From assembly GCA_016926155.1 (NCBI GenBank), contig JAFGPC010000089.1:1-64000 (forward strand): a stretch of DNA of 64,000 nucleotides, in the 5' to 3' direction. The notes beneath the pieces were generated by a model. It was not told the DNA's origin, searched no databases, and saw nothing but the letters and a program-made list of their open reading frames with translations. The position numbers and the translations under genes are program-made. This document shows, piece after piece, positions 33,486 to 34,826 of the stretch (positions are counted from its first letter, which is position 1; every line of letters begins with the position of its first letter). This DNA comes from Sedimentisphaerales bacterium. GTDB lineage: Bacteria; Planctomycetota; Phycisphaerae; Sedimentisphaerales; Anaerohalosphaeraceae.

Positions 33486-33812
33486 TTACACCACCGAAAC
33501 CGGTTCGGTCTCGGTCTCCTTTTTAAAAGACTTGAGCGATTGTGGTTCGGCGACTTTACGATATCCCAGTGCCTTGATTACTTCCAGCACTTCCGTCCAT
33601 GTAGGGAAGGGACGCTGATTGGCACGCTTGTATTCGTCGATAGCCATGAGAAATTCAAATTGATCGTCGGTCATCTCCCCCTCTTCGGCGGCGCGACGCT
33701 CTTCGGTGCGTCGATGTCCGGGGCCTCGACGGCGGTCCATTCCGATTCGACGATCTATAACGGCATTACGCCGTTCGATAAAACTCTTGTCCTTTTCACT
33801 CTTTTCACTCAT
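33486..33812 (-). CDS. Arg-rich small protein, unknown
   Basis: 108 residues from ATG 33812 (AAGGA seven bases upstream). The N-terminus has repeated Arg patterns ([19 protein letters not shown], then HRRTEERR). A compact helical part ([38 protein letters not shown]) follows. The helical part looks like a small winged or helix-turn-helix type domain common in Planctomycetota, but I cannot assign a function. It is in one unit with the DUF2007-like gene upstream, and a strong terminator follows. Confidence 0.7.
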
Positions 33813-33844
33813 GGGATATTCCTTCTTGCCGTTGTCAGGACCGA

Positions 33845-34162
33845 TTAACAATCTTCATCATATAACTCATCTTCCAGGATATCGTCGTCTTCTTCATGAA
33901 AGACCATATCGTAGAAATCACTACATGCTCCTTCAGATTCGATAAGAAGATGAGCTTCATCCAGGAACTCTTCCGGAACCATCACGGCTACGCCGGGGAA
34001 GGAAGAGCCGGGGTCCGGTCCGGTTTTAACGGCAGCAGGGATATTACTGTCGTTGAGAAGTTTCTTGTATTGCTTGGCCAGATCGACATCTTCGGCAAAG
34101 GCTACCGTAACAAACTCCTCCAGGGAGACCGTCTCGCTTTTTTTCCTGCGCCTTGGCGCCAT
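33845..34162 (-). CDS. DUF2007-like putative signal-transducing protein
   Basis: 105 residues. The N-terminal basic tail [10 protein letters not shown] is followed by a small ferredoxin-like fold typical of DUF2007 proteins: [46 protein letters not shown]. The C-terminus is very acidic ([16 protein letters not shown]). The family is predicted to act in signalling on sequence grounds only. GGAGA precedes the ATG by 8 bases. It lies 32 bases before the Arg-rich gene on the same strand. Confidence 0.75.
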
Positions 34163-34471
34163 AGGTCCATCTCCGATCTTGAAGGGTTAACAAAGGATTA
34201 CCAGACACCCATCTGTGCGTTCATCGTCCTGGAAGGAGTACCAATTAATTGAAAATCAAAGAAATCCCTACAGGAATGGCTTCTCTTTAGACAATCTGGA
34301 CTGTTAGATGCAGACTTTTTGGGTTATACGTTCTGTACGTGCAAAATTTTTAAGGAAGGGGCATTTTTTTGTTGCATTACCTCAAGGTTGGTCTCAAAAT
34401 ACCCCCGAAATGGTTGGTTGGCACACGGGTGCCTGATTTTATTGGAACTTTAGTTACATGGAGGTATCAGA
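34163..34471 (+). other. 309-base intergenic region
   Basis: The divergent region between the DUF2007-like gene and the histone-fold gene. It is rich in short T-runs and contains one clear inverted repeat (34420-34433), listed separately. No convincing sigma-70 promoter was found on either strand. No gene seen. Confidence 0.4.
34420..34433. repeat. Inverted repeat before the histone-fold gene
   Basis: GGCAC-ACGG-GTGCC, a perfect 5-bp inverted repeat with a 4-base centre, 38 bases before the histone-fold start. It could be an operator or a small mRNA hairpin. The GG-to-GC spacing is one base too short for a sigma-54 promoter. Confidence 0.4.
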
Positions 34472-34687
34472 ATGGCAAAGGCAAAGAAGAAAGCCGCCAA
34501 GAAGTCTGCCGGCAAGGATCCGCTGATCGTGGCAAGCAAGGTCAAGGCATACATCAAGAGCAAAGGCCTGATGACCTCATCGGATTCCCTTGGGGCGTTA
34601 AATGCCAAAGTTTGTGCTCTGATTGATGAGGCGGGCAAAAGGACCAAGTTGAATCGTCGCAGCACCGTGAAGCCTCAGGATCTGTAA
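34472..34687 (+). CDS. Bacterial histone-fold DNA-binding protein
   Basis: 71 residues. A lysine-rich tail (7 Lys in residues 1-15) precedes a histone-like fold. Helix 1 is about 16-31 (DPLIVASKVKAYIKSKG), loop 1 holds MTSSD, and helix 2 is about 37-61 (SLGALNAKVCALIDEAGKR). Loop 2 is NRRSTVKPQDL, matching the archaeal GRKTIKAEDI motif. The chain ends immediately after it, so helix 3 is essentially absent. Truncated-helix-3 histones are known in bacteria and archaea. It is probably dimeric and DNA-binding in the nucleoid. GGAGG lies 7 bases before the ATG, and a strong terminator follows, so it is monocistronic and likely well expressed. Confidence 0.82.
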   Translation: MAKAKKKAAKKSAGKDPLIVASKVKAYIKSKGLMTSSDSLGALNAKVCALIDEAGKRTKLNRRSTVKPQDL

Positions 34688-34728
34688 CAAGATGGGCTCT
34701 TGATGGGGCCGTTTTGAAAATGAGATGC

Positions 34729-34768
34729 ACGAGCCGCTCCCGAGGGGGGCGGCTCGTTCTTTCTTTTT
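34729..34768 (+). terminator. Strong rho-independent terminator
   Basis: A 9-bp GC-rich stem (ACGAGCCGC with GCGGCTCGT) whose loop can pair further (CTCCC/GGGGG), followed by TCTTTCTTTTT. It lies 42 bases after the stop of the histone-fold gene. Confidence 0.9.
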
Positions 34769-34826
34769 AGAGCAGACAGATTCCCGTAAGTGATGGTCGA
34801 AAGGCATATTTTCCGGCTATTCTCGT

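Follow-up and report, generated by a model that had tools for sequence, protein, structure and literature searches.

A predicted FtF-type histone, conserved together with its promoter and 5′ leader, in a Sedimentisphaerales bacterium

The stretch of DNA analysed here (64,000 nucleotides from a Sedimentisphaerales bacterium; hereafter, the window) carries a forward-strand gene at positions 34,472–34,687 whose 71-residue product, MAKAKKKAAKKSAGKDPLIVASKVKAYIKSKGLMTSSDSLGALNAKVCALIDEAGKRTKLNRRSTVKPQDL, is very probably an HLp-type face-to-face (FtF) histone: a chromosome-organising protein that is produced from its own promoter and that, as a closed tetramer, wraps about 60 bp of DNA regardless of its sequence. 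The fold, the family, the conservation of tetramer-signature and DNA-contact residues and the layout of the gene support this reading directly. Tetramer formation and DNA wrapping by the window histone are its most likely behaviour, because the protein is homologous to HLp, a histone of Leptospira perolatii. This places a near-universal FtF histone in a planctomycete order that has seemingly had no previous experimental histone study.

The open reading frame begins with ATG and ends with TAA. It is a real, conserved gene rather than a chance reading frame, because 55 of the 59 genomes examined from its own family and order contain a match to its product and because a phmmer search of the PDB matches it to HLp with an E value of 3e-19. 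Among the good-quality genomes, 33 of 35 have an orthologue; identities to the window histone are mostly 51–72%, and the relatives that carry names belong mainly to Phycisphaerae and Sedimentisphaerales. A genome search found the gene to be single-copy in its own genome. Two genomes (G012 and G036) have two matches each, which suggests duplicates. One genome of the same family (G009, 93% complete) yielded neither a histone nor a csrA match, which an incomplete assembly could explain; in its congener G018 (68% complete) the histone matched in part and csrA not at all. Histones that are 59–68% identical were also found on three contigs labelled Patescibacteria, Falkowbacteria and Kerfeldbacteria (L056, L077 and L084), as a result of either transfer or binning error.

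In the same PDB search, HLp (9QT0, 9QT1 and 9QT2) was the best match and was followed by the archaeal FtF histone HTkC (E = 0.007) and by HBb (E = 0.014). A single-chain AlphaFold2 model built from 81 aligned relatives has a core with pLDDT values of more than 90, helices at residues 21–30 and 37–60, a single turn at 68–70 and a disordered tail. Foldseek also returned HLp as the top match to this model (TM score of 0.95 on the target, 0.8 Å r.m.s.d. and 66% core identity), with HTkC and the dimeric HBb, both at 33–34% identity, ranked below it. Searches of the window histone against Pfam and NCBIfam profiles gave zero matches; PF00808 did not match it up to an E value of 10 and matched 8 of the 81 relatives at 0.01. 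A search of the same genome with PF00808 gave only one broken match, below threshold, which was set aside. These results bear out what had been read from the letters alone, namely a histone fold with a lysine-rich N-terminal tail (7 lysines in residues 1–15) and almost no third helix.

The α3-truncated prokaryotic histones are defined by an α3 helix of 3–4 residues and a shortened α2 (PMC11390915), and in the model α2 spans residues 37–60 and the chain ends at residue 71, directly after the turn. Within this group, FtF histones are defined by their tetramer and by conserved R48, N52, R54, T56 and D61 (HMM positions; Schwab et al., PMC11390915). All five residues have counterparts in the window histone (R57, N61, R63, T65 and D70), and these lie in a segment (residues 57–71; 34,640–34,684) that comprises the tetramer residues R57 and N61, the L2 loop motif RxTxxxxD (R63, T65 and D70) and the one-turn α3. 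Across 78 relatives, R57 and N61 are each present in 77, and R63, T65, D70, S22, K23 and K25 in all 78. On the basis of sequence and model, the window histone thus adds a further member to the FtF class, which is already known. The short third helix, which the sequence-only reading had pointed out, is a hallmark of α3-truncated histones in general (PMC11390915) and no oddity of this protein. That reading had also aligned the protein with archaeal histones; the shared fold and the RxTxxxxD loop stand, but the proper comparison is with the FtF subfamily, in which the bacterial member HLp has around 66% core identity and a structure determined with DNA (PMC12701072). The HMfB-type archaeal nucleosomal histones (Pfam PF00808) have the same fold and loop motif but an α3 of around 10 residues and a longer α2, whereas the window chain stops one turn past loop L2. 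The lineage had been described as little studied, which holds for experiments but not for surveys: Planctomycetota are among the bacterial phyla in which FtF histones have been catalogued (Schwab et al., PMC11390915), and the persistence of histones in this phylum was remarked on by Hocher et al.

HLp is the closest characterized relative. It is a tetramer in solution, wraps around 60 bp of DNA and reorganizes the nucleoid of Escherichia coli (PMC12701072), and it shares with the window histone the fold, the truncated α3, most of the residues that contact DNA and a single gene copy. In the phmmer alignment, the tetramer-signature residues R49, N53, R55 and D62 of HLp are equivalent to R57, N61, R63 and D70 of the window histone. 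The residues that contact DNA in the HLp structure (PMC12701072) are K15, K17, K21, T27, G29, K54, T56, T57 and R59, and these align with K23, K25, K29, T35, S37, R62, S64, T65 and K67, respectively. A mild difference lies in the tetramer partners S52, T61 and F63 of HLp, which are L60, Q69 and L71 here; S52 and T61 form part of the hydrogen-bond network of the HLp tetramer (PMC12701072). The N terminus of HLp is short and lacks a lysine run, whereas that of the window histone is a lysine-rich tail. HTkC (Thermococcus kodakarensis, PDB 9F2C) has the FtF class and fold in common (TM score of 0.88), but has only 33–34% identity and 59 residues in total, with a chain that starts near the fold and has no lysine-rich tail.

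By analogy with HLp, two chains would pair into a histone dimer, and two such dimers would contact each other at both ends to give a closed tetramer. These contacts would involve the C-terminal end of α2, loop L2 and the one-turn α3, with R57, N61, R63 and the chain end at the joint. A positive belt, formed by the three α1 lysines (K23, K25 and K29) and the six loop residues (T35, S37, R62, S64, T65 and K67), would then wrap some 60 bp of DNA, whatever its sequence, and the flexible lysine tail may add further nonspecific contacts. Made from a single-gene mRNA, the histone would act beside HU-type proteins in organizing the chromosome. A nucleoid role is likely, and we infer dimerization, DNA binding and abundance. 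The genome encodes two HU-type proteins, whereas the Leptospira hosts of HLp have none, and for this reason the window histone may not be the chief nucleoid protein.

Around 60 loci share a fixed neighbourhood, in which the histone gene lies between an opposite-strand pair of genes (a DUF2007-like protein and a conserved protein without a name) and a group of glycogen genes (a glycosyltransferase, a GH57 enzyme and a glycogen debranching enzyme). This constancy argues for vertical inheritance of the histone gene within the class. The context differs from that of HLp, the gene of which adjoins smc/map in many Leptospira. The DUF2007-like gene of the window (33,845–34,162, reverse strand) is divergent from the histone gene and keeps its synteny; its Pfam score is 22.4 against a threshold of 25.7. 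Beside it, in the syntenic loci, is a conserved 121-residue open reading frame (33,486–33,851, reverse strand) with an arginine-rich first half, 57–82% identity among relatives and no Pfam match. Four histone genes (L022, L024, L025 and L026) lie away from this neighbourhood and lack the conserved promoter.

The gene appears to be a transcription unit of its own. A promoter at 34,364–34,400 on the forward strand consists of an UP-like T-tract, a −35 box TTGCAT (34,372–34,377), a 17-nt spacer and a −10 box CAAAAT (34,395–34,400). Some 50 relatives share this arrangement (T-tract, TTGCAA, around 17 nt, and CANAAT or TAATAA), and the motif in the complete form typical of f1, the family to which the window belongs, occurs once in the genome even with one mismatch allowed. 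Downstream, a terminator scan identified an intrinsic terminator (34,729–34,767, forward strand) with a 13-pair stem at 34,729–34,757 followed by the U-rich TCTTTCTTTT; 4 such sites were found in the window against 0.9 expected. An Rfam match to the DnaX frameshift element on the reverse strand (34,725–34,788) scored below the gathering threshold and was rejected, being this same terminator read on the opposite strand. The strong ribosome site and terminator that had been read from the sequence are thus both present, the former as GGAGG just 5′ of the ATG, and the claim that the gene is monocistronic is supported by the conserved promoter, by the terminator and by the 439 nt that separate it from the following gene.

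An improbable alternative is that the protein has the histone fold but chiefly bridges DNA or regulates particular genes instead of wrapping the chromosome. The crystal contacts of HLp, taken alone, also fitted bridging (PMC12701072), two HU-type proteins are at hand in the same genome, and α-glucan genes adjoin the histone gene in the syntenic loci; however, the DNA-contact residues correspond to those in HLp, a histone that wraps DNA in solution, and a gene with its own promoter and terminator need not be co-regulated with its neighbours. Slightly less probable again is a 'bacterial dimer' histone that, similar to HBb (Bd0055) of Bdellovibrio (PDB 8CMP, 8FVX, 9EZZ and 9F0E), bends DNA as a dimer without tetramerizing: such histones share the truncated α3, the RxTxxxxD motif and a similar fold (TM scores of 0.83–0.88) and are also reported in Planctomycetota, but their class lacks the conserved R48 and N52 (PMC11390915), the counterparts of which, R57 and N61, are present here and in nearly all relatives, and HLp is far closer to the window histone in both identity and E value. 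A wrapping, HLp-type tetramer remains the preferred reading.

The predicted 5′ leader of the mRNA is also conserved. It is around 65 nt long (34,407–34,471), with its start placed about 7 nt past the −10 box. It contains a hairpin, GGCAC-ACGG-GUGCC (34,420–34,433), an invariant box TTATNGGAAC (34,439–34,448) and the ribosome-binding site ACATGGAGG (34,456–34,464), which sits in a conserved ACAYGGAGG context similar to a CsrA site. In f1 leaders the hairpin lies immediately 5′ of the box, and ACAYGGAGG covers the ribosome site; box and ribosome site together occur once in the genome. In most f1 members, the 24 nt that precede the box have more favourable folding than shuffled sequences (mean z of −2.7). 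The stems differ in sequence: each of the five innermost pairs shows 3 to 5 pair types, a covariation seen across related sequences and not a formal phylogenetic test. RNAalifold found no structure in a MAFFT alignment of f1 leaders because the stems lie at differing offsets, and windows fixed on the box reveal the hairpin. Whole-leader folding energies were non-significant (mean z of −0.8 for f1 and −0.2 for the others), and the folding claim is therefore confined to the local hairpin. The terminator scan also flagged the GGCAC/GUGCC hairpin at 34,420; we rejected it as a terminator because its position before the box is kept and the gene lies downstream. Phycisphaerae leaders outside f1 have a CCGG...CCGG-like hairpin.

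We tentatively suggest, from the leader sequences, that CsrA may bind this leader at GGA elements and repress histone translation according to nutrient state. The published binding consensus is RUACARGGAUGU. In Phycisphaerae outside f1, GGA lies in the hairpin loop, with ANGGA in nearly all leaders, and 23 such leaders contain 50 GGA against 17.9 expected, although these sequences are related and the enrichment is not independent. In f1, GGA follows the hairpin (UUAUNGGAAC), the loop of which is usually without it, leaving UUAUNGGAAC and the ribosome site as the remaining elements. Across the genome, ACAYGGAGG rarely precedes an ATG (8 cases against 6 in a reversed control), yet it is kept in the orthologues. 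A csrA gene is present in the same genome and in 34 of 35 good-quality relatives, but csrA is near-universal there and its co-occurrence does not discriminate. Histone autoregulation or plain mRNA stabilization would account for the same observations on the leader. The wider proposal, that Phycisphaerae regulate their chromosomal histone post-transcriptionally through a class-wide leader that lets CsrA set its levels by nutrient state, is slightly less probable; if true, bacterial chromatin compaction would be coupled to carbon status. Our literature searches returned no account of such a histone leader or of regulated bacterial histone synthesis, of which this would be an early case if the leader binds either CsrA or the histone itself.

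The variable part of the protein is its N-terminal Lys/Ala-rich tail (residues 1–15; 34,472–34,516), which has low model confidence, indicative of disorder. Positively charged tails are common in bacterial FtF histones (Schwab et al., PMC11390915). In the relatives, tail length ranges from 1 to 52 residues, mostly as Lys/Ala, Lys/Thr or Lys/Pro runs, and the core is nearly frozen; one core with such a range of tails is a natural series in which the role of bacterial histone tails could be tested directly. Five relatives (L016, L024, L025, L039 and L009) carry lysine-repeat tails of 36–52 residues that recall those of linker histones. In five other relatives, from Bdellovibrionaceae (L097, L101, L102, L104 and L105), a cysteine-rich, zinc-finger-like N-terminal domain is fused to the histone fold, and these are probably the published ZZ histones.
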